A stretch of 64,000 nt of DNA. Source: Pseudonocardiales bacterium (GTDB lineage Bacteria > Actinomycetota > Actinomycetes > Mycobacteriales > Pseudonocardiaceae). Under the pieces are notes generated by a model. That model was not told the DNA's origin, ran no database searches, and was given only the letters and a program-made list of their open reading frames with translations. The DNA lies in the NCBI GenBank assembly GCA_023252195.1, contig JAHEXI010000006.1:124001-188000 (forward strand), given 5' to 3'. How positions within the stretch are numbered: position 1 is the stretch's first letter; each line of letters begins with the position of its first letter. A program made the position numbers and the translations under genes. Of this stretch, positions 1 through 21,173 are shown piece by piece.

Positions 1-246
1 GAAACCTTCTTTCATGATCACTAGGGTGGGAAGGGACATGACGCGGAACATGGCGGCAAGCTGGCTATGCGCTTCAGCGTCGACCTTGCCGAACACCGCA
101 TCGGGGTGGCGCTGCGATGCTTGTCCGAAAACAGCTTCGAACATGCGGCACAGTCGACACCGCGGTCCCCAGAAGTCGACCAGCGCCAATTTGGCGCCGC
201 CCACGACGTCGGAGAAGGTCTCCTTTGTCAGCTCAATCGTCGCCAT
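1..246 (-). CDS. Thioredoxin (N-terminal part, runs off the window)
   Basis: Eighty-two codons read from an ATG at 246 down to base 1, with no stop, so the C-terminus lies outside the window. The protein starts MATIELTKETFSDVV and has the thioredoxin fold order: beta strand with LALVDFW, the redox motif WGPRCRLC (Cys30 and Cys33), and the cis-Pro loop MSLPTLVIM near residue 73. The second position before the resolving Cys is Leu where thioredoxins usually have Pro, which may shift its redox potential. Thioredoxin reduces protein disulphides in the cytoplasm. Before the integrative element arrived this gene would have lain just downstream of rnpB. Confidence 0.85.
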   Translation of the reverse strand, partial: MATIELTKETFSDVVGGAKLALVDFWGPRCRLCRMFEAVFGQASQRHPDAVFGKVDAEAHSQLAAMFRVMSLPTLVIMKEGF

Positions 247-336
247 CTTCCCCTTCGTTGAACCCTTCGGTGATATCGAGAAGGCATCTGCTGTTTCCGC
301 GGTTTTGTGAAATTCGTCTTGTCCGCGTCCGCCCGC

Positions 337-386
337 TGGCGCAGGTGGTGAAGTGCGGGGCGGACGAGCTGGCCTGTAAGCCGGAT
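337..386. repeat. Left attachment site (duplicate of rnpB 3' end)
   Basis: Fifty bases matching 20739-20788 at 48 of 50 positions (differences at 349 and 355). They include the 3' strand of RNase P helix P1 and the conserved segment CTGTAAGCCGGAT. No other part of rnpB is present here, so this is an attachment-site copy rather than a gene. Confidence 0.88.
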
Positions 387-403: not shown

Positions 404-1654
404 TTAGAGGCCCGTATCGTGGTCTTGGGCCGTCACGGGGCCGTCAACGTCCGCTTCCCCGTTACCGAATAGACCGTCGATCGCGCGTTGAGTTCGGGCC
501 GTGCTGGTCGGCATGAGGTGGGTGTAGGTCCGGAGGGTGAAGCCGGGGTCGTGGTGGCCGAGGTACTCCGACAGGGCCTTGATGCTCTCCCCTGCATCGA
601 GCAGCACCGAGGCGTAGTGGTGCCGTAGCGCGTGCGTCCCGTCCTGCCGGGTCGGGTGAGTGATACCGGCCGCCCTCCTGGCCGGTGCCCAGACCCGGTC
701 ATTGAAGCGGCTGCGCAGGAGCGCTCCACCCACGGGAGTGGTCAGGAGCAAGCGCACCGTGACGGGATCCCCACTCGGGATGCGCCATGGCAGCGTCACC
801 GGCACAGGCGGGAAGCGCTCCATATGCTCATCGAGCAGCCGTAACAAACTGCGCGGAAGCGGGACGTCCCGAGTCTTGTTGCGCTTGGGCAGGGCGTACA
901 CCTGCTGACCGTCGATGATCCGCACTTGCCGAACGACATGCACGACCAGGCCCTCGCGGTCGAGATCCGCTGGAGCAAGCCCGAAAAACTCCCCTTGCCG
1001 CAGCCCACAACCAGCGCCGAGCGGAATGGCGATCTTGTAGCGGTCGGCCAACGCCAATCGCATCGCGTTGACCCGAGCACGCGACCAAGGCACAACTTTC
1101 TGTGAGACGGGCCGAGGTCGGACCACTGTCCGGGCATGGCACGGGTTCTCACGGATCAACTTGTCATCAACGGCCGCGCTGAGGATTGAGGACAGGTGCG
1201 CGAAGCAGCCCGATTGGTAGCTCGCGGCCACGTTGCGTTCCTGCATGCTCCGGATCCACGCCCGGACGTCGGTGGGCCTTATCGATCCGAGCTCGCGTCG
1301 TTCGAAAAAAGGCAGGATCTGCGCGTTGAGCCGCCACGTCACGCTGTTCCGCGTGGAGGCATCAAACGTTTGACTATCGAGCCAAGTTCGCACGAATCCG
1401 CCGAAAGTAAGCCTGCCCGCCTTCGGGTCGATGTAGGCCCCCTGGCGCTTATCGCCCTCGACTCTGACGAGGAAGTCCTCTGCCGCCTTCTTCTGGCGGT
1501 CGGGGAAGCTAACGCTGCGCTCGTGGCCCTCGGGGTCGAGGTAGCGCACCCGATAACGCTGGCCCGTGCCGTGCCGCGCCGCCTTGACCCGGGCTCGCTT
1601 CTTCGTCACCGGGTCCGCGACGACCTTACACCAGCGATCCTCGATGTGGCCCAT
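404..1654 (-). CDS. int: Tyrosine recombinase / integrase
   Basis: A 416-aa phage-type integrase that would catalyse recombination between the element and rnpB. An N-terminal arm-binding region and a core-binding SAM-like region (residues about 83-170) precede the catalytic domain. The catalytic set is visible: Arg219 in GCGLRQGE, His341-x-x-Arg344 in HALRHHYAS, His367 in LGHHDP and the nucleophile Tyr377 in LRTYTHLM. I chose the ATG at 1654, 4 bp after the xis stop and preceded by GAGGTGG; an in-frame ATG at 1687 would overlap xis. The gene ends 17 bp from the left attachment site, the normal position for an integrase at its element's end. Confidence 0.93.
   Translation of the reverse strand: MGHIEDRWCKVVADPVTKKRARVKAARHGTGQRYRVRYLDPEGHERSVSFPDRQKKAAEDFLVRVEGDKRQGAYIDPKAGRLTFGGFVRTWLDSQTFDASTRNSVTWRLNAQILPFFERRELGSIRPTDVRAWIRSMQERNVAASYQSGCFAHLSSILSAAVDDKLIRENPCHARTVVRPRPVSQKVVPWSRARVNAMRLALADRYKIAIPLGAGCGLRQGEFFGLAPADLDREGLVVHVVRQVRIIDGQQVYALPKRNKTRDVPLPRSLLRLLDEHMERFPPVPVTLPWRIPSGDPVTVRLLLTTPVGGALLRSRFNDRVWAPARRAAGITHPTRQDGTHALRHHYASVLLDAGESIKALSEYLGHHDPGFTLRTYTHLMPTSTARTQRAIDGLFGNGEADVDGPVTAQDHDTGL
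427..445. repeat. Tandem GGGCCGTC sites, 11-bp period (left arm)
   Basis: GGGCCGTC occurs at 427-434 and again at 438-445, exactly one helical turn apart. The same pair with the same spacing is found at 15591 and at 20643 near the right end. Tandem sites at an element end, close to the core, are the usual layout of integrase arm-type sites. These overlap the last codons of int. Confidence 0.6.
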
Positions 1655-1658
1655 GAGG

Positions 1659-1856
1659 TCAGGCCACCTCGGAGCTGAGGCCAGCAAACCAGTTCCGAAC
1701 CTCAGCCGGGTCGTACCGAAGATGCCTGCCGACCTTGCGAACCGGCGGACCCTCGCCCCGCCACTTCCACTGATAGAGCGTCTTCACCGGCACGCGGAGA
1801 TACAGCGCCGCATCATCGACCGTCCACAACAGATCGATCCTCGCTACATCACCCAT
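1659..1856 (-). CDS. xis: Excisionase (MerR-like helix-turn-helix)
   Basis: A 65-aa protein with the winged helix-turn-helix found in AICE excisionases: LLWTVDDAALYLRVPVKTLY, then a WRGEGPP wing and RHLRYDPAEVRNWF. It would bend DNA at the attachment site and steer the integrase toward excision. The start overlaps the rep stop as TGATG, and int begins 4 bp downstream, so rep, xis and int are probably translationally coupled. The size and the position between rep and int match pSAM2-family elements. Confidence 0.88.
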   Translation of the reverse strand: MGDVARIDLLWTVDDAALYLRVPVKTLYQWKWRGEGPPVRKVGRHLRYDPAEVRNWFAGLSSEVA

Positions 1857-3505
1857 CACGCTGCCTCCTCGATTGCCGAACGGTTCTCGGGTGGTGATCC
1901 GCTCGCGGCGAGTTGGGCGGCGGTGTATTCGGCGTGCCATCGCTGTCGTTCGGCCACGGCCTGCAGTAGCAAGACGGGACGTGGTGGGACGTCGGGGTCG
2001 GCGGGTGCGGGGCGTTCCCACCGATACGGTCCGTCGTCGGGTCCGTGCGTGGGCTGGATGCCGACCTGTTCCAGGAGTTGCCGAACAAACGCGCCACGCT
2101 CGGCCCGGTGGTCATCGAGGGTCTTGTTCGACCATTTGCGGGAGACCAGGACTCGTCGGCCGGCGATGCCGAGGTGTTCGGGTTTGTGTGCTTTGCCCTT
2201 GCAGTGCCCGGGGGTGATGGAGTGTCGGGCGCCGTGGGGTTGGATGCCGTAGAGCAGCCACACCGCACAGCGGGTCGAGCAGGGGGTGACCAGGAGTTCG
2301 GCGTGGAGCCGGTGGGCGTGGTCGCGGTGGGCGTCGGTGGCGTGCTCGCCGAGTCCGGCCGCTTGGCTTACAGATTTCGTCAAATATTTCGTGAGGTAAC
2401 CGATGTGGCGGCCGGCTTCTTCGGTGCCGCCCAGGATGCCCTTGACGTGTACTTGGGTCCCGAACCGGACGACGTGCGCGGGCTCGGCTAGTTCGTCGCA
2501 GGCTTGGTCGAAGGTGGGCAGTGGTGTGCCGGTGTCGGGGTCGGTGAAGGCCTTGGCGCGGGTGTCCCATACCGGTAGCCGCTGGTCGGTGTAGAGGAGC
2601 TGGTCGTGGTGGGGCCACCAGACTTGGTGGTACGTGGCGGCGGTGATGGCTCGTAGTTCGGTGCGGGGGATGGCTCCTCGGATGGCGGCGTGAAAGTGCG
2701 GGGCGCCGCGTTTTTGGGGTTCGACGGTGCCGAAGTACTGCACCTCCCAGCCGACACAGCGGCGGGTGTTTTGCCAGAACCGATCCAGCAGCGCGGGGAA
2801 GTGGATCGCGTCTCGGGCGGCCCGCTGGTAGTCATAGCGCTCCGGGTCCACCGCGGCCCCCTCGCCATCGACCCGGCCGTAGGAATCCAGGGTCAAGGTC
2901 AGGAACGTCGACGGCCGGTAGCGACCGGCGAAGACCCGCCCGAGGGTGCGGTTCTCGACGGGTCGCCGGGGAAGGTCCGGGGCGTCTTGGCGACGCCGGG
3001 TGGACCGCTTGACCGGCTTGGGTGGCGGGTCTAAGGGGGTGAGTCGTCCGCGGACTCCTGCCGCGCGGAGTTCGGTGTCCAGTTCGGCGACCGACTCTGC
3101 GATCTGCTCACACGTAACCTCATCACCCACGGCGCGGCACTCGGCGTAGACCGCGACGAGATCAGCCCGGGTGGCCATCAACTCCTTGTGATCCTCGCTG
3201 GGGGTGTCTCGGGCGTTGACCGGTTCGGCGTCGAGGTGCCAGCCCTGGCGGCATTGGACCATCCGCAGCCGCCGCGCCTTGTCCGCACACGGCGGACACT
3301 GGTCGGCCCGGGTGGACCCACACGGGACCGGGACGACCTCGACCCGGCCGGTGGTGGTGTCGATGCGGCGCATGGCCAGCGGTCGGATGCAGACGCCGTG
3401 TTGTTCGGCCAGGGCTTGGGCGACATCGGCGCTGAGCGGTAGCGCGGCCCGCTGCGCCCGGGTCATTTCCGCGATTCCCACCGCGGCGGGTTGGGTGGCT
3501 GTCAT
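1856..3505 (-). CDS. RepSA-like rolling-circle replication initiator (HUH)
   Basis: A 549-aa protein of the pSAM2 RepSA kind that would nick the excised circle and start rolling-circle replication. Visible motifs: a putative zinc cluster (Cys62, Cys70, Cys73, Cys85), the strand TFLTLTLDSYG before the metal site, the HUH motif PHFHAAIRG (His270, His272) and the tyrosine motif YLTKYLTKS (Tyr370, Tyr374), any of which may be the nicking residue. I chose the ATG at 3505 because GGGAGGT lies about 10 bp upstream and the start overlaps the upstream stop as TGATG; an in-frame start at 3538 is less likely. It is the third gene of a five-gene overlapping run ending in int. Confidence 0.9.
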   Translation of the reverse strand: MTATQPAAVGIAEMTRAQRAALPLSADVAQALAEQHGVCIRPLAMRRIDTTTGRVEVVPVPCGSTRADQCPPCADKARRLRMVQCRQGWHLDAEPVNARDTPSEDHKELMATRADLVAVYAECRAVGDEVTCEQIAESVAELDTELRAAGVRGRLTPLDPPPKPVKRSTRRRQDAPDLPRRPVENRTLGRVFAGRYRPSTFLTLTLDSYGRVDGEGAAVDPERYDYQRAARDAIHFPALLDRFWQNTRRCVGWEVQYFGTVEPQKRGAPHFHAAIRGAIPRTELRAITAATYHQVWWPHHDQLLYTDQRLPVWDTRAKAFTDPDTGTPLPTFDQACDELAEPAHVVRFGTQVHVKGILGGTEEAGRHIGYLTKYLTKSVSQAAGLGEHATDAHRDHAHRLHAELLVTPCSTRCAVWLLYGIQPHGARHSITPGHCKGKAHKPEHLGIAGRRVLVSRKWSNKTLDDHRAERGAFVRQLLEQVGIQPTHGPDDGPYRWERPAPADPDVPPRPVLLLQAVAERQRWHAEYTAAQLAASGSPPENRSAIEEAA

Positions 3506-3681
3506 CAGTCCCTGACCTCCCGGAAGGTGGTCGCGCACCGGAGCGCGCCGAGTGGGATGGTCGTGGTGGCATCGGGTGCCAGATCGGTTAACGCCTTACC
3601 GACCTTGGCCAGTACCCACACCACGACACCCAAGGCGCCGCCACCCGCAATGACCGCAGCGATCAAACCGATGTCCATCAT
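3505..3681 (-). CDS. Small single-span membrane protein of the rep operon
   Basis: A 58-aa protein from an ATG at 3681 (a second ATG follows directly). Residues about 4-25 (IGLIAAVIAGGGALGVVVWV) form one hydrophobic span, followed by a short polar tail. The stop overlaps the rep start (TGATG) and the start overlaps the stop of the preceding 34-codon gene, so it is locked into the rep-xis-int run. Small membrane proteins of unknown role are common just upstream of rep in actinomycete integrative elements; some belong to spread (Spd) functions. No specific function can be assigned. Confidence 0.7.
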   Translation of the reverse strand: MMDIGLIAAVIAGGGALGVVVWVLAKVGKALTDLAPDATTTIPLGALRCATTFREVRD

Positions 3682-3782
3682 CGACCACCGCCGACCGTGA
3701 CAACGATGGTCGCCATGATGCTGTCCTCATTCAGACCGGGTAGGGGACTTGCGCCGCGCCCCGTCGTTGTGCGTATCCTCAC
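3678..3782 (-). CDS. Tiny 34-codon gene at the head of the rep operon
   Basis: A GTG at 3782 opens 34 codons ending MATIVVTVGGGR, with AGGAG 9 bp upstream of the GTG. The stop overlaps the start of the next gene by the same TGATG arrangement used at the other junctions of this run. The peptide has no recognisable domain. It may be a leader peptide that couples translation rather than a functional protein. Confidence 0.5.
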   Translation of the reverse strand: MRIRTTTGRGASPLPGLNEDSIMATIVVTVGGGR

Positions 3783-5228: not shown

Positions 5229-5313
5229 GATTCCTGCCTCTTCCTGTCTGACTGTCTGTGTGGTGCCACCCCTCAGTGGGTGACACCACTAGCTTCGGCC
5301 AGGTCAGGGTCTG

Positions 5314-8455: not shown

Positions 8456-9190
8456 GTGACGGAGACCACCCGGGCCGATCGGGTGTGGGGTGTGGTGACC
8501 GCCTACGCCGAGGCGCTCGGCGTCCCAGTGTCGTTGCGCTCGCTGTGTCAGGCGGCGGCCGCTCGGTTGCCGGTTAGCGCAGTGGCGGTATCGGTACGCA
8601 GTGGCCGGGTGGTCTCCGAGGTGCTCTGCGCCAGCGGATCGCTAAGCCGGGAGCTGGAGGAACTACAGCTCACCGTGGGCGAGGGCCCGTCGCTGCAGGT
8701 GTTGGTCGGTGGCCCTTTGGTGCTGGTGGGTGACCTGGATTGCGCCGAGTCGCAGGCTCGCTGGCCATTGTTCGTCCCGGCTGCCGTCCAGGCTGGGGCC
8801 CGGGCGCTGTTCGCGTTGCCGCTGCGTGTCGGTGTGATCCGGGTCGGAGTCTTCATCCTCTACGCCGACCACCCGGGCCAACTGCCGGCCGAAGAGTTGG
8901 CTGAGGCGTGGGTCTTCGCCGAGTTTGCTCGGCGGTTGGTGCTCGATGAGCAAGCCGGCATCGGCACCCCGGAGGGCTACCCGGTTGATTGGTTGTCCGA
9001 CAGCCGTCCCGAAGTCCACCAGGCCACCGGAATGATCTCCGTGCAGCTTGGTGTCGGGATCGCTGAGGCGTTCAGCAGGCTGCGGGCGCGGGCGTTCACC
9101 GAAGGGCGCCCACTATCCACTGTCGCGGCCGAGGTCGTCGCCCGCCGACGACGGTTCGACCCCGATCACACCGCACGAGAAGGCGTGTAG
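8456..9190 (+). CDS. GAF and ANTAR domain protein 1
   Basis: A 244-aa protein: GAF sensor domain at residues about 20-165 and an ANTAR-like RNA-binding module at about 180-235 (RPEVHQATGMISVQLGVGIAEAFSRLRARA). ANTAR proteins bind paired hairpins in mRNA leaders and prevent termination; GAF domains sense small ligands. The ANTAR part retains the helix-start motif QATGMIS but lacks the usual long charged linker. The GTG start at 8456 is preceded by GGGGGCGG. It lies directly upstream of a second GAF-ANTAR gene (41-bp gap) and downstream of a STAS relic. Confidence 0.85.
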   Translation: MTETTRADRVWGVVTAYAEALGVPVSLRSLCQAAAARLPVSAVAVSVRSGRVVSEVLCASGSLSRELEELQLTVGEGPSLQVLVGGPLVLVGDLDCAESQARWPLFVPAAVQAGARALFALPLRVGVIRVGVFILYADHPGQLPAEELAEAWVFAEFARRLVLDEQAGIGTPEGYPVDWLSDSRPEVHQATGMISVQLGVGIAEAFSRLRARAFTEGRPLSTVAAEVVARRRRFDPDHTAREGV

Positions 9191-9231: not shown

Positions 9232-9975
9232 ATGGCCGATGATCGATTGACCCGGACCTTTGTGGAGCTTGCCGATACCCTGGTCGCCGGCTTCGACGTG
9301 GTCGAGTTCCTGCACATGCTGGTGGATCGCTGCATGGAGCTGCTCGATGTGTCCGCGGCCGGGTTGCTGCTGGGCGACTCCCACGACCAGCTGCGAGTGA
9401 TGGCCTCCTCCGCCGAGAACATCCACCTGCTGGAGCTGTTTCAGCTGCAGAACCACGACGGACCCTGCCTGGACTGCTACCTCACCGGTGAACCGATCAG
9501 CCACCCCGACCTGCGCGTGGCCGCTGACAGGTGGCCGATGTTCGCTCCCGCGGCCACCGAGTCGGGATTTCGGACCGTGCACGCCGTGCCGATGCGACTG
9601 CGCTCGCAGGTGATCGGGGCGCTGAACCTCTTTCACACCGAGCCAAATGCCCTAGCCCCCGAGGTCACCCAGATCGGTCAAGCCATGGCCGACGTGGCCA
9701 CTATCGGCTTGATCCAGGAACGAGCCCTGCACCACCAGCACGTCCTGGTCGACCAACTGCAGACCGCGCTGGACAGCCGTGTGATCATCGAACAGGCCAA
9801 GGGCATCATCGCCGAACGCCACGGCATCGACCCCGGTGCGGCCTTCACCCTGATGCGCGTTTACGCCCGCAACCACGGGCAGCGGCTCACCGAGTTTGCC
9901 GCCGCCATCATCGACGGCACGACCGCCATCACCAAATTCCTCCCCAGCGCGCCGGCTGCCACTCCCGGGGTGTAA
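9232..9975 (+). CDS. GAF and ANTAR domain protein 2
   Basis: A 247-aa protein. GAF domain at residues about 5-160 (LHMLVDRCMELLDVSAAGLLLGD, GPCLDCYLTGEPISHPDL, VHAVPMRLRSQVIGALNLF). After a helical linker comes a canonical ANTAR module (about 178-230) with ALDSRVIIEQAKGIIAERHG and a conserved R/N pattern in MRVYARNHGQRL. It probably acts as a ligand-controlled transcription antiterminator. Start ATG at 9232. It closely resembles actinobacterial GAF-ANTAR regulators and is better conserved than its upstream neighbour. Confidence 0.9.
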   Translation: MADDRLTRTFVELADTLVAGFDVVEFLHMLVDRCMELLDVSAAGLLLGDSHDQLRVMASSAENIHLLELFQLQNHDGPCLDCYLTGEPISHPDLRVAADRWPMFAPAATESGFRTVHAVPMRLRSQVIGALNLFHTEPNALAPEVTQIGQAMADVATIGLIQERALHHQHVLVDQLQTALDSRVIIEQAKGIIAERHGIDPGAAFTLMRVYARNHGQRLTEFAAAIIDGTTAITKFLPSAPAATPGV

Positions 9976-10059
9976 CCCGAACCGAAGCCCGACGCGAACA
10001 CCGGCAGGGGAAACCCTCGTCAGGCAGCACCAGACCCGTGCCGTCTCCGCGCGTGATCC

Positions 10060-10114
10060 AGTACAAATCGGGTACAGATCGCGCCACCCAACAATGACCA
10101 ACGTCGACCAACAT
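10060..10114. repeat. Repeat A: 11-bp-period GTACAAA pair plus ACGTCGACCAACAT
   Basis: AGTACAAATCG (10060-10070) is followed at exactly 11 bp by GGTACAGATCG. The whole 55-bp block matches 18857-18911 at about 45 of 55 positions in the same orientation. Its inner end coincides with the point where the zinc-finger reading frame of the IS21-type element is cut off. It is probably a scar of an element end. Confidence 0.6.
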
Positions 10115-10320
10115 GGGCATTCGTAGATGGTGAACTGGCGTCGTGGGCGGGCGACGGGGACGACGACCGCGGCGGGTGGGTTCTGGTGACGGCAGTGGAA
10201 CGCGGTTTTCCGGCATGCGCTGGTGCAGTAGCGCTGCCGGCCGGTCGGGGTGAAGTAGCGCTGGCAGACGGGGCAGGTCCTCGTCGTGGGGTCGTCTGGC
10301 GACGGGGATGGGGTGGTCAT
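10115..10320 (-). pseudogene. Truncated zinc-finger gene of the IS21-type element
   Basis: About 69 codons from an ATG that overlaps the istB stop (ATGA). The peptide has a treble-clef type cysteine motif, TCPVCQRYFTPTGRQRYC followed by TSACRKTAFHCRH, then PVARPRRQFTIYECP. Zinc-finger genes of this kind can follow istB in actinobacterial IS21-like elements. The frame then runs into unrelated DNA at repeat A, so the C-terminal half is lost. Confidence 0.55.
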
Positions 10321-11109
10321 GGTGTGCCGTGCCCGCGGCGGAGTTTGTCGGCGCGGGCACGGTGGGTGCGCATTGGGTAGGACTCGCCGGTGATGTTGAA
10401 GACCACAGATCTGTGCAGTAGTCGGTCGAGCATCGCGGCGGCGACCATGGGTCGTCGAAGATCCGTCCCCAGGACGGGATGCCCAGGTTGGTGGTCAGCG
10501 CGATGGAACCTTTGAAGTGGCGTTGGGTGATGACCTGGAACAGCGCGGCGGCGGCTTCGGCGGCCATCGGCAGGTATCCAAGCTCATCGATGATCAATAA
10601 CCGGGGGCCGGCGAAGAGTCGCATGGTGGTGGCCCAGCGGCCTTCCAGGGCGGCGCGGTGACAGCGGGCGGCCAGGTCGGCGGCGGTGGTGTAGTAGGTG
10701 CGGTAGCCGGCGGCGACCGCGGCATGGCTCAGACCGACGGCGAGCATCGTCTTGCCTGTGCCGGGCGGCCCGATGAGCAAGACGTTGGTGGCGTCGTCGA
10801 GGAACCGCAGCGTGCCCAGTTCGGTGACGAGCTTGCGGTCGACCGAGGGTTGGGCGTCGAAGTCAAAATCTGAGAGCTGCCAGGGTGCGGGTAGGCAGGC
10901 GAAGCGGGCCAGACTGGCCTGGCGGCGTTGGTGGGTGGCGGCGGCGACCTCGATCGCGAGTAGGCGTTCCAGCAACGCGGTGTGGCCCAACTGTTCGGCG
11001 CCGGCGCGGTCGAGCTCGCCGGGCAGTGCTTGCGCGCCGCGGATAGCCGCAGCGCGGCGAGATGCCCCCGCAGCCGCTGGTAGATCGAGTTCTGCTCGGT
11101 GGTGGTCAT
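10318..11109 (-). pseudogene. IstB-type ATPase of an IS21-family element, two frameshifts
   Basis: The N-terminus MTTTEQNSIYQRLRGHLAAL lies in one frame, the body in a second (GHTALLERLLAIEVAAATHQ, Walker A NVLLIGPPGTGKT, Walker B RLLIIDELGYLP), and the C-terminus in a third (MVAAAMLDRLLHRSVV, ending HRARADKLRRGHGTP). Frameshifts fall near 11040 and near 10447. IstB is the ATPase helper of the IstA transposase. The two breaks make this copy inactive. Operon order on the minus strand is istA fragment, istB, zinc-finger gene. Confidence 0.85.
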
Positions 11110-13032: not shown

Positions 13033-13054
13033 CGTGCCCCTTGCGTGCCCGTTC
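13033..13054. repeat. 11-bp-period CGTGCC tandem
   Basis: CGTGCCCCTTG is followed at exactly 11 bp by CGTGCCCGTTC. The same layout with the CGTGCC core occurs at 15326. It starts 158 bp before structured repeat R1. Confidence 0.5.
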
Positions 13055-13190: not shown

Positions 13191-13429
13191 ATGCCCTCGC
13201 CGGGCGGGCAGATTTCCGGGATGGCCACCCACAAGAGTTGGTGCGGCTGGGTCGGAGTGGGCTGGGTGTGGCGTCCCGTCGACCTCCCTTCAGGGCTACC
13301 ACACGGCACCCCGGGGGCAGAGCTAGATCACACATGCGCCGGTTCCGTCGAGGGCTACCCCCGGGCTGCCGTGTGGTCGGGCTGCGCCAGATCGACGGGA
13401 CGCCACACCAGCCTCAGTGTGCAAGATCG
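13191..13429. repeat. Structured repeat R1
   Basis: Begins GCCCTCGCCGGGCGGGC and ends CAGTGTGCAAGATCG. The outer stem GTGTGGCGTCCCGTCGA (13266-13282) pairs perfectly with 13392-13408. The inner 19-bp stem at 13299-13317 pairs with 13358-13376 at 18 of 19 positions. Copies at 15749 and 19016 keep both stems with compensatory changes, and a right half remains at 20561. It may be a structured RNA, a folded single-strand DNA site or a mobile repeat. The rest of 12850-13464 holds no gene that I can support. Confidence 0.75.
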
Positions 13430-14976: not shown

Positions 14977-15325
14977 AGAGGGGACACCCGCGTGACGCGC
15001 GACCTCAGACGATCGCAACGGTCCTGGAATACGCATCGATACCCTCGGACGGCTGGTGCTCGGCGCGAGTCGCCGGGCACTCGTGGCGCCGGGTCCGGGG
15101 CGTTCACAAATCGTAGCCGGGCTCGTCGATTCAGGAAACCCATGTGGTTGATTAAGGTGCGCGCAGGCACCGGAGGAGGTCGGCACGGACCCAGGCGAGT
15201 CGATGCGACGAGTCCCGCGACACGACAGTTTCCGCTTGACCGGCCAGAGAGATACGGACACGACGCCCAGGCTGGAGCTGAGCGTCCAGCTCCGAGCAGC
15301 CAGCTCCCCCACAACACCCGCCGCC

Positions 15326-15347
15326 CGTGCCAAATTCGTGCCAGATG
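15326..15347. repeat. 11-bp-period CGTGCC tandem beside a tRNA fragment
   Basis: CGTGCCAAATT is followed at exactly 11 bp by CGTGCCAGATG. It lies 83 bp from the tRNA-like fragment and shares its core with 13033-13054. Confidence 0.5.
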
Positions 15348-15430
15348 CAGCGGGGAGTTACGGGGACACCGATCGTCACTCCCCAACGAATACTCCAACC
15401 TGCCATCGCAGGTCAGACGACCATTCCTGC

Positions 15431-15496
15431 TGGTGGCGGGTCAAGGATTCGAACCTTGGAAGGCATCAGCCGACGGATTTACAGACCGCTGCCGTG
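15431..15496 (-). tRNA. tRNA-Tyr-like 3' half (fragment)
   Basis: Read on the minus strand, this contains an anticodon loop with GTA, a short type-II variable arm (GGC...GCC), a perfect T stem and loop (CAAGG TTCGAAT CCTTG) and an acceptor 3' strand ACCCGCC followed by ACCA. The matching 5' half is missing or scrambled and the anticodon stem has a mismatch, so this is not a working tRNA. Integrases of actinobacterial elements commonly carry or duplicate tRNA 3' ends, so this is a likely old attachment site. Confidence 0.6.
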
Positions 15497-15590
15497 CAAC
15501 CCGAGCGTAGTCGCATACTCAACAGCCCCTGCGCACCCATCGTCACCCGGCCCGCACACGCCGATGACCATAGGCAGGTTCCGTCGCATC

Positions 15591-15609
15591 GGGCCGTCTG
15601 TGGGCCGTC
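15591..15609. repeat. Tandem GGGCCGTC sites, 11-bp period (internal)
   Basis: GGGCCGTC at 15591-15598 and 15602-15609, identical in sequence and spacing to the pairs at the two ends of the element (427, 20643). It starts 158 bp before repeat R2. Confidence 0.6.
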
Positions 15610-15748
15610 TCAGCCGACGGAACAACACTCAACAACGAGATGCGACGCCGACCAACAACAAGTATTGCCGCTGGTCAGCGCCCGTCTCACGGCTGTGATC
15701 AGGAGGCCTGCTTGGTCTCCCAGAAGATCTTGTCAATCTCAACGACCC

Positions 15749-15995
15749 GTGCCCTCGCCGGGCGGGCAGGTCTCGGGGATGGCCAGCCTCCAGAGGAAGT
15801 GCCGTACTGGGTGGGGGTGGGGGTGGGCGGGGTGTGGCGTCTCCTCAACCTCCCTCAAGGGCTACCACACGCCAGCCTGTGGGCAGAGCGGGATGGCGCA
15901 CGCTCCGGTTCCGTCAAGGGCTACCCCCAGGCTGGCGTGTGGTCGGGCGATGCCAGGTCGAGGGGACGCCACACGATCCCCAGCGTGCGAGATCG
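15749..15995. repeat. Structured repeat R2
   Basis: Second copy of the R family. The outer stem GTGTGGCGTCTCCTC (15832-15846) pairs with 15960-15974, with one T-G pair. The inner stem (15865-15883) pairs with 15924-15942 at 18 of 19 positions. Relative to R1 the inner stem differs on both strands while staying paired (GGCA/TGCC becomes GCCA/TGGC; a C-G pair becomes T-A). It ends CAGCGTGCGAGATCG. Confidence 0.75.
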
Positions 15996-16245
15996 TCGGC
16001 GGTCGCGCCGAGTTGATGATCGTTTGGACACTTTATGGTCACAAAACACATCCAGATAACCCAAAATAACCGAAGACAACGAGCGTTTGGAGCCACGAAA
16101 ATCGCAGGTGATCAGTACTATCCGCGAACAACCACGACCACAGTCCGAGAATCCTTGGGTATGGGGTCGCCGCTCCCTTGACCGGATATCGCTATGTGCC
16201 AATCCGGACTCAAAGATGGTCCCCAGTCGCTGGCGAAACTCCGGA

Positions 16246-16719: not shown

Positions 16720-17277
16720 CAGTACCCCGTTTTAATTCCTGCGTGCCATCTCCCAATCGACGGAACGCGTCGAAGTGTTGCAGAACTTTCCTACACGAGT
16801 CCTCGGACCGTCCACGCCGTGCCGCCGCGGCAACGGTGCCGTGCGATGGCCACCGGACCACCATCGTCCCCTCCGTCACGTCGAGGAGCCTCGCCGAGAC
16901 CGAGAGAGTCGCGGGCAAGTGAGGCCAACCCGGCCCAGCGAAAGCCGACGGCAACGCGCACGATGACCTGGCACCAGCAGCACAGTGCGAAGCCGGGTCT
17001 CATCGCAGATTGGGTCCCGGAGGCTAGTGTTGCGTGCTCTTGGGGGCCATCAACGGGCCGCAGGTTCAACATCCTGTCTCATCCTGTGCGCCTTGCAGGG
17101 GATTCAAGCATGATCATCGTCAGCGAGTCGTCAGCGGAAGCGGCACGACGAGTTAGCACGGGCCGATACACACCGGCACGTAGGCGCAGCTCAGCGGCAC
17201 GGAGAGGTACCCCCGGGTAACCAGACGCACGGCCAATCAGCGTTCACACCGAAGTGGTCCCAGGAGCCTCTGTCCGC
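16720..17277. other. 558-bp gap without a supported gene
   Basis: Open frames exist on both strands (for example minus 16709-16954), but none shows a domain or ribosome-binding site that I trust. No strong repeat was seen. Confidence 0.4.
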
Positions 17278-18911: not shown

Positions 18912-19015
18912 CAACCGGAGTCTTCGCAGGTAAACAACCGTCCCAGCCGTCAAAGCCCCGGCCAGAGCTTTCTCAGCGGCGCTACATCAGCAAGCGCAGT
19001 CCAGTCCAACAAACC

Positions 19016-19245
19016 ATGCCCTCGCCGGGCGGGCAGATCTCCGGGATGGCCGGCCACAAGCGCGGGCAGGGCCGGGTGGACAGCGTGTGGCATCCCATCG
19101 ATCTCCACCCAGGGCTACCACACGGCGACCCGGGGGCAGAGCTACCCGAGGCCCTCGCCGGTCGCGTCGAGGGCTGCCCCCGGCTCGCCGCGCGGTCGGG
19201 CTCCGCCAGATCGACGGGATGCCACAGCCCCAGTGTGCAAGATCG
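19016..19245. repeat. Structured repeat R3
   Basis: Third copy of the R family. The outer stem at 19086-19102 (TGTGGCATCCCATCGAT) pairs with 19210-19226 at 16 of 17 positions. The inner stem at 19118-19137 pairs with 19176-19195 at 17 of 20. Compared with R1, GGCGTCCC/GGGACGCC has become GGCATCCC/GGGATGCC and GGCA/TGCC has become GGCG/CGCC, so both partners changed together. Similarity to the R1 neighbourhood extends about 200 bp further right. Confidence 0.75.
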
Positions 19246-20560: not shown

Positions 20561-20637
20561 GTTGCCCCCGAGACACCACGTGGTCGGGCTGCGCCAGACC
20601 GAACGGATACCCCACAAATCCCAGCGTGCAAGATCGG
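20561..20637. repeat. Half copy of structured repeat R (R4)
   Basis: Matches only the right half of the R family: TTGCCCCCGAG...CACGTGGTCGGGCTGCGCCAGA...CCCAGCGTGCAAGATCG. The left stem strands are missing, so neither long stem can form. It ends 5 bp before the right-end GGGCCGTC tandem. Confidence 0.65.
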
Positions 20638-20642
20638 CTCCT

Positions 20643-20661
20643 GGGCCGTCGTCGGGCCGTC
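20643..20661. repeat. Tandem GGGCCGTC sites, 11-bp period (right arm)
   Basis: GGGCCGTC at 20643-20650 and 20654-20661, matching the left-end pair at 427-445 in sequence, orientation and spacing. Both pairs are followed by CAA(A)CGTC. It lies 77 bp from the right attachment site. Confidence 0.65.
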
Positions 20662-20738: not shown

Positions 20739-20788
20739 TGGCGCAGGTGGCGAAGTACGGGGCGGACGAGCTGGCCTGTAAGCCGGAT
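20739..20788. repeat. Right attachment site within the 3' end of rnpB
   Basis: Fifty bases repeated at 337-386 with two mismatches. This copy is continuous with the intact RNase P RNA gene and supplies the 3' strand of helix P1 and the conserved segment next to it. Confidence 0.88.
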
Positions 20789-21173
20789 CCTGTGCACCGG
20801 GCGCCTTGCGGCGTCCGGCCGGCGGTCATCCATCTCGGCCTGCCGTTGCCGGCAGGCTCTAGCGGCCTACCCGCAGGCATCGGGCGGGCCGCCCTCGATC
20901 GCCTGCGCAGCGCGCCGAATCCGGCGCGCCTTTTGGCCTTGCTCCGGGTGGGGTTTACCGAGCCGTCCCGGTCACCCGGGACGCTGGTGGTCTCTTACAC
21001 CACCGTTTCACCCTTACCCCGCTCACGCGGGGCGGTCTGTTTTCTGTGGCACTGTCCCGCGGGTCACCCCGGGTTGCCGTTAGCAACCACCCTGCCCTGA
21101 GGAGTCCGGACTTTCCTCGACGGGCCCGTTGCCGAGCCCGACGCGACCGCCCGGCCAGCTCGTCCGCCCCATC
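20757..21173 (-). ncRNA. rnpB: RNase P RNA, bacterial type A
   Basis: The minus strand shows the hallmarks of RNase P RNA: helix P1 formed by GGGGCGGACGAGCTGGCC at the 5' end and its exact complement at the 3' end (20759-20776 on the plus strand), GAGGAAAGTCCGGACTCC, CAGGGCAGGGTGGTTGCTAA, AGGGTGAAACGGTGG, GGTAAACCCCACC and the closing ATCCGGCTTACAGGCC. It is the catalytic subunit that trims tRNA 5' ends. The ends are estimated from P1 to within a few bases. It is intact despite the element joined to its 3' end. Confidence 0.95.

Follow-up and report, generated by a model that had tools for sequence, protein, structure and literature searches.

Why should half of a tRNA-Tyr gene lie in the interior of an element whose ends are marked by a different target, rnpB? 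This question is raised by positions 15326-15609 of the window, the stretch of 64,000 nucleotides analysed here (G000:C12:124001-188000, from a Pseudonocardiales host genome, G000, of 4.74 Mb in 48 contigs). The original prediction held that this stretch was probably the old attachment site of an element that had used a tRNA target, now enclosed in the rnpB-targeted element. The present element is bounded by a 29-bp repeat of the rnpB 3' end (358-386) on one side and by the intact rnpB gene (20763-21162) on the other, with the following features.

358-386, plus strand: displaced 29-bp rnpB 3' end, int-side boundary of the present element (29/29 identical to 20760-20788, same orientation)
404-1687, minus strand: int, tyrosine recombinase of the present rnpB-targeted element (PF00589, E 6e-13)
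427-445, plus strand: GGGCCGTC 11-bp tandem in the 3' coding end of int; putative arm sites on the int side
1662-1856, minus strand: small helix-turn-helix protein, excisionase-like (HTH_17, E 3e-12; probable role judged from its place between int and rep)
1856-3538, minus strand: RepSA-type replication initiator, pSAM2 type (PF20199, E 8e-101)
3577-3717, minus strand: FtsK/SpoIIIE-type transfer gene, first 47 codons, remainder missing (tblastn)
20643-20661, plus strand: GGGCCGTC 11-bp tandem, distal arm of the element now at rnpB
20763-21162, minus strand: rnpB, intact, target of the present element (RF00010, 285.8 bits)

As in an AICE, the integrase adjoins the att site (int at 404-1687 beside the displaced rnpB end at 358-386), a replication initiator is present (PF20199) and the target 3' end is directly repeated (29 bp, at 358-386 and 20760-20788), while an FtsK/SpoIIIE-type transfer protein is lacking. 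Because only 47 codons of the transfer gene are left, we regard the element as a defective AICE. The stub was recognized by tblastn with a single query, the FtsK_SpoIIIE homologue from G001:C126 (L062), at 68% over 47 amino acids (E 1e-10), and this one homologue gave no further significant match in the window. With HMMs built for this analysis, a single integrase ORF was found in the element, the one adjoining the rnpB core. The cargo includes two GAF-ANTAR regulator genes in tandem (8456-9190 and 9232-9975), and the element also contains the IstB-like gene of an IS21-type insertion (9929-10990), beside which a GGTACAA arm region recurs in diverged form at 10058.

The stretch in question can be divided into a core and two unlike flanks.

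15326-15342, plus strand: CGTGCC 11-bp tandem, putative arm sites on the 3' side of the tRNA half (D1-type flank)
15343-15431, minus strand: remainder of the D1 arm, found beside 10 of 43 tRNA-Tyr half copies
15432-15484, minus strand: core, the tRNA-Tyr 3' half, spanning anticodon loop (CTGTAAATCC...) through acceptor-stem end
15485-15492, minus strand: GCAGCGGT, adjoining the crossover; candidate core-type half-site
15494-15590, minus strand: U2 arm, in place of the tRNA 5' half (10 of 43 copies)
15591-15609, plus strand: GGGCCGTC 11-bp tandem, putative arm sites on the U2 side

The landmarks of the original prediction were largely borne out: the CGTGCC tandem lies at 15326-15342, the tRNA-Tyr 3' half with its GTA anticodon loop and perfect T arm occupies 15432-15484 of the minus strand, and the GGGCCGTC tandem at 15591-15609 shares its 8-mers with those of the element ends at 427 and 20643, differing from them in the 3-bp spacers. 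The core matches the host's intact tRNA-Tyr gene (G000:C48; tRNA-Tyr(gta) by ARAGORN) at 52 of 52 nucleotides, and comparison of the fragment with this gene in a search of the host genome gave a match far above chance (96%, E 4e-25). Neither ARAGORN nor Rfam made a tRNA or other RNA call at 15432-15484, and the half is therefore not a working gene. The encoded CCA that had been noted at its end proved accidental: the host gene has CGCCACCCAGC, and the loss of a single C from the host's CACCCAGC produces the apparent CCA in the window. Nor is the site's age visible in the tRNA half: the word "old" is unsupported, because the core equals a living gene while the arms have diverged to 66-80% among relatives.

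Exactly three GGGCCGTC tandems occur in the window (427, 15591 and 20643), against a mean of 0.01 expected, and none of 100 shuffles reached three. The CGTGCC tandem taken alone is only modestly above chance, with two exact occurrences in the window against a mean of 0.09 expected and two of 100 shuffles reaching two. Crossovers in an anticodon-loop subsite are a known class among tRNA attachment cores, as far as the accessible part of PMC4383910 describes them, and the core conforms to this class in its tRNA-Tyr identity from the anticodon loop to the 3' end; a cognate integrase was not found in the same element. A functional attP would carry one integrase motif on both arms, and here GGGCCGTC stands on one side and CGTGCC (TGGCACG type) on the other. 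As the two arms come from different integrase types, the junction is a hybrid and not one functional attP. We read it as the meeting of two tRNA-Tyr integrase systems, the U2 side with the arm code of the window integrase's family and the D1 side with that of the TGGCACG family.

Relatives carry the same parts in other arrangements. A query of window positions 15300-16010 matched all 11 genomes of the pseudonocardial genus (E 1e-5), and at least 43 copies of the tRNA-Tyr half were present in 10 of the 11, with none in G006. This number is a lower bound: the best 40 of 43 (G001), 55 (G002) and 47 (G005) first-look candidates were scored, and a copy whose tRNA part runs into N (G002:C347) was left out of the count. 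Across the 43 copies the sequence changes abruptly at the anticodon loop. Its 5' side bore the tRNA 5' half in nine copies (only partly in G008:C5), U2 in 10 and other sequence in 24, and the 3' side bore D1 in 10, a further type, D2, in 23 and neither in 10; one copy cut by a contig end and unclassified on both sides (G009:C173) was counted among the others. U2 was combined with D1 in three copies, with D2 in five and with other sequence in two, and the 24 other 5' flanks were joined to D2 in 13, to D1 in six and to other sequence in five. Copies with the tRNA 5' half were followed by other sequence in three cases and by D1 or D2, directly after tRNA-Tyr sequence, in six (tRNA-D2 in five, one only partial, and tRNA-D1 in one, G002:C447). 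The halves are joined combinatorially to recurring arms. The best reading of the stretch is indeed an attachment site of tRNA-Tyr-targeting elements inside an rnpB-targeted one; what had to be given up is the picture of an element's end, as a whole core with two arms is present.

The arms carry conserved motifs at similar distances. In eight of the 10 U2 copies the GGGCCGTC tandem was located 103-109 nt from the crossover (five exact, three with 1-3 mismatches), and the CGTGCC tandem (at most one mismatch) was located 109-111 nt from the tRNA end in seven D1 copies and 90 nt from it in the window, eight of 10 in total. These tandems, flanking the core, are putative arm-type integrase sites. 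D2 flanks contain TGTCCGG-like repeats, often at 55, 65 and 75 nt, with at least one repeat in 22 of 23. The 23 other flanks were conserved only at the eight bases adjoining the loop (GCAGCGGA), where 10 to 19 of the 23 agree per position, a pattern that suggests a core-type binding half-site. Some of the 24 other flanks look alike by eye and may be the ends of further elements.

Do the two sides of the core share one history? After exclusion from the divergence and tree counts of one U2 copy with an N run at the junction (G002:C116), the remaining nine had a pairwise identity of 98.3% in the core and of 80, 71 and 66% in flanking segments at growing distance. On the tree of U2 flanks, AU tests rejected the three D1 copies as one clade (p-AU 0.018), the window and G002:C15 as sisters (p-AU 0.028) and the three G000 copies together (p-AU 0.003), for groups that were picked with the sequences in view and on a tree with no strongly supported branch. 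As the U2 flanks do not group the D1 copies into a single clade, U and D flanks appear to have been reshuffled at the core, and its two sides to differ in history. Secondary chromosomal integration was considered as a possible source of the 24 other flanks, but a clean empty site was not seen with either of two single flanks: that of G004:C116 runs into unrelated sequence in two other genomes, and that of G001:C126 gave no match reaching the junction. In a survey of 297 genomes drawn evenly from the family (E 1e-12, best two candidates per genome), 41 matched; among the matches listed, those outside the genus cover the tRNA part and at most about 20 bases beside it, and none covers the U2 arm.

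Within the flanks compared, the fragment does not mark a conserved chromosomal place. rnpB was seen in 10 of the 11 genomes, and of the nine other rnpB loci one (G002:C15) has the tRNA-Tyr half nearby; the flanks compared were 0.6 to 19 kb long, and absence of the half is certain only within those stretches. At G002:C15 the order within about 0.75 kb is D2-core-U2-hairpin-GGGCCGTC arm-rnpB. The thioredoxin gene that forms the left flank of the window element was not found adjoining rnpB in relatives, and a conserved left flank was not seen there; in G008 the thioredoxin-like gene (window 1-330) and rnpB lie on one contig, 131 kb apart (G008:C149:1071 and 132337), and the locus therefore differs strongly between species. 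Several other places (L086, L087, L088, L094) also have displaced rnpB ends, some 34 bp long and accompanied by arms, and in L133 (G004:C101, 4733-5918) a different integrase abuts the intact rnpB 3' end from the opposite side. At least two integrase types of opposite layout seem to use rnpB as a target. A route of target change from the likeness of CTGTAAG in the rnpB overlap to CTGTAAA in the tRNA-Tyr overlap was considered and dropped, their orientation to the int side being opposite.

Evidence that related elements differ in their integrases came from the replication genes. Rep homologues 81-87% identical to that of the window lie beside other integrases at tRNA-Arg(tct), tRNA-Asn(gtt), tRNA-Gly(ccc) and tRNA-Met(cat), and a partial homologue (90% over 126 residues) lies beside an integrase at tRNA-Val(cac); the closest relatives of the window integrase in genomes of the genus are at most 56% identical to it. 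D1-type ends belong to the window's element family, for L057 is colinear with the window (rep...D1-core-U2) and L062 has rep...D1-core. Within the genus, neither an intact integrase pairing U2 with tRNA-Tyr nor an intact tRNA-Tyr element with integrase was found, and ten ORFs, chosen from the codirected ones on the U flank of the core loci, contained no integrase domain at E 0.001. Pieces adjoining U2 in G000:C10 gave weak partial integrase matches at E 0.1, from a broken int fragment. On G001:C70 an intact recombinase lies 11 kb from the U2 copy and is of the XerC/XerD-like kind.

An exact 7-mer tandem of period 10-12 was found at 14 of 18 integrase ends (ORFs of more than 300 aa outside the window), and two of the four ends without one stop at a contig end. 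Random 250-bp pieces from the same loci carried such a tandem in 443 of 3600 cases (12%), so that about two of the 14 would be expected by chance. Relatives of the window integrase have the unit ACGGCCTG, close to that integrase's own GACGGCCC, and the units linked to other integrases are TGGCACG (tRNA-Gly), GCTGACGA (tRNA-Val) and TTGTACC (G004:C6). Several of these recur inside the window element.

13033-13049, plus strand: CGTGCC 11-bp tandem, second arm of that type
17117-17136, plus strand: TCGTCAGCG 11-bp tandem, arm unit like that of the tRNA-Val integrase of G001:C257
18857-18875, plus strand: GGTACAA 11-bp tandem, arm unit like that of the integrase of G004:C6 (diverged copy of the region at 10058)

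Outside int, exact 7-mer tandems with a period of 10-12 occur at 22 places of the element. In tests designed after the motifs were noticed, all six period-11 places (13033, 15326, 15591, 17117, 18857 and 20643) shared at least 6 bases with an integrase-linked unit on the int strand, three of them at least 7, as against one of the 16 places of period 10 or 12; in the remaining 42.8 kb right of the element the corresponding figures for at least 6 bases were 0/4 (period 11) and 1/14 (period 10 or 12). Tandem units of at least four integrase types are present in this one element. The rnpB element and one further element bear out the rule of a code at both ends, and the remaining elements do not. 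A matching distal tandem occurs in one of six AICEs examined, the tRNA-Gly AICE of G000, which has TGGCACG tandems at both ends, the distal one 90 bp from the displaced tRNA-Gly half; in the other five (tRNA-Asn, two tRNA-Arg, tRNA-Met and G004:C6) none was found, apart from one tRNA-Arg element that has a near match at a distance of 6 kb from its displaced half, and in two of these five a displaced tRNA-Arg half is present with no matching tandem nearby. At L183 (G000:C26) there are two displaced tRNA-Gly halves 4 kb apart (1169-1225 and 5259-5302), of which one is exact and the other diverged; a separate TGGCACG tandem goes with each, and the pair is a remnant of accretion.

A further repeated component, a hairpin block some 240 bp in length that contains a long nested hairpin, lies near arm tandems and in one orientation throughout the window.

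13192-13422, plus strand: hairpin block copy 1 (79% to copy 2)
15746-15990, plus strand: hairpin block copy 2, joined to the U2 arm
19014-19238, plus strand: hairpin block copy 3
20565-20636, plus strand: hairpin block, partial copy 4

Positions 15825-15995 folded as DNA at -50.9 kcal/mol (z -4.2). The block occurs at nine places in G000 and at more across the genus, and it had no match in Rfam. It is possibly an origin or transfer site, or else homology for module exchange.

With a probability of roughly 0.65, we interpret 15326-15609 as a tRNA-Tyr attachment-site junction, kept as a fossil of an integrase change inside a RepSA-type AICE that now uses rnpB. The core would be the tRNA-Tyr 3' half, with strand exchange presumably in the anticodon loop (CTGTAAA between GCGGA/T and TCCGT), and the arms would be the two 11-bp-period tandems about 90-110 bp off on either side. 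Related AICEs would swap an int/attP module and retain their replication genes; an attP of the GGGCCGTC type and an int for rnpB would have been installed beside an existing tRNA-Tyr site, with the old site left inside, and the repeated hairpin blocks by the tandems might have provided homology for such exchanges. The main rival of this integrase-change reading is accretion followed by deletion, in which two tRNA-Tyr elements lay head to tail, U2 of one and D1 of the other met at their junction, and the stretch reached the rnpB locus by deletion or homologous recombination, with no integrase switch within the element. We think this unlikely while taking it seriously: the U2 and D1 arm motifs differ as they should where two different elements meet, AICE accretion is described in the available parts of PMC9513070 and PMC3218068, and G000:C26 has a second, diverged displaced tRNA-Gly half 4 kb past the first. 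Against accretion, however, a second tRNA-Tyr half was not found in the window element, and accretion at a single target does not unite in one element the tandem units of four or more integrase types, whose tRNA targets partly differ.

The occurrence of the same U2 with D1 or with D2 in different genomes, and the reshuffling on the U2-flank tree, would also be expected if the tRNA-Tyr half inside elements were itself a portable landing pad, into which a D1-type AICE inserted site-specifically. Such an insertion should leave a second core at the inserted element's other end, but only one core was found in the window, and we consider this course of events quite improbable. An artefact of assembly or binning has to be considered, as the assemblies are fragmented and such repeats often lie at contig ends; the window, however, is inside a 283-kb contig and the U2-core-D1 arrangement recurs in G001 and G010, which leaves an artefact very little room. 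Least credible of all is a tRNA pseudogene or a tRNA-like RNA with a function of its own. The 52-nt half is unusually well kept, as such an RNA might be, but it drew no tRNA or Rfam call, the conserved block begins at the anticodon loop and not at the start of the gene, and its neighbours are repeated element ends.

Returning to an integrase change, part of the element's target-changing history may be readable from its DNA. Tentatively, and with rather less confidence than even odds would express, we suggest that the AICEs of this genus record their integrase history, one end module being left per switch, and that old cores stay recombinogenic and reshuffle elements. An end module would then consist of a tandem with an 11-bp period, its 7-8-mer serving as the arm code of the integrase concerned, often a hairpin block and sometimes an old tRNA core, and reshuffling might take place where displaced tRNA halves lie, at a great distance from tRNA genes. 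On the same tentative footing, the window element could hold the traces of at least four integrase types (the GGGCCGTC, TGGCACG, GCTGACGA and TTGTACC codes). Integrase switching is known from side-by-side comparison of elements, and here traces of earlier attachment are seemingly preserved within one element. The arm tandems suggest a simple sequence code joining an integrase to its sites; if it holds, old targets of actinobacterial elements could be read from sequence alone, and displaced tRNA halves as recombination hot spots become a testable idea.

How does the window element compare with known systems? As in pSAM2-type AICEs, int, the small helix-turn-helix protein and RepSA adjoin one another in the order of pSAM2-type elements; the window element differs from them in its rnpB target, its truncated transfer gene and the old attachment arms kept inside. 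Judged by title, none of the papers listed on rnpB as a target names an element inserted in it, and in those parts of the AICE and integration literature that were available, no description of stacked arm codes in one element was found. To judge from the portions of PMC3009677, PMC9513070 and PMC3218068 at hand, the literature already has AICEs in tRNA-Tyr, accretion, integrase switching and the use of tRNA remnants as sites, and the window site therefore illustrates a known kind well. SLP1 of Streptomyces coelicolor, like the element that we propose for the window's past, is an actinobacterial integrative conjugative element that targets a tRNA-Tyr gene, regenerating the tRNA at attL while a direct repeat is left at attR; the boundaries of SLP1 are formed by tRNA-Tyr repeats of its own, whereas in the window the tRNA-Tyr half is internal and rnpB bounds the element (PMC3009677, in part). 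AICE03 of a Streptomyces population has different integrases in different targets (tRNA-Val or rlmN), a case of integrase switching that resembles the window's family in uniting several integrases and targets in one element family, but the accessible text does not describe a leftover att site of a former integrase, such as the window keeps (PMC9513070). Fean6303 and Fcci3390 of Frankia, as far as they are covered in the available part of PMC3218068, share with the window element an extra att site within their structure; the extra site of Fean6303 takes part in excision, whereas the extra core of the window belongs to another target than the present one.
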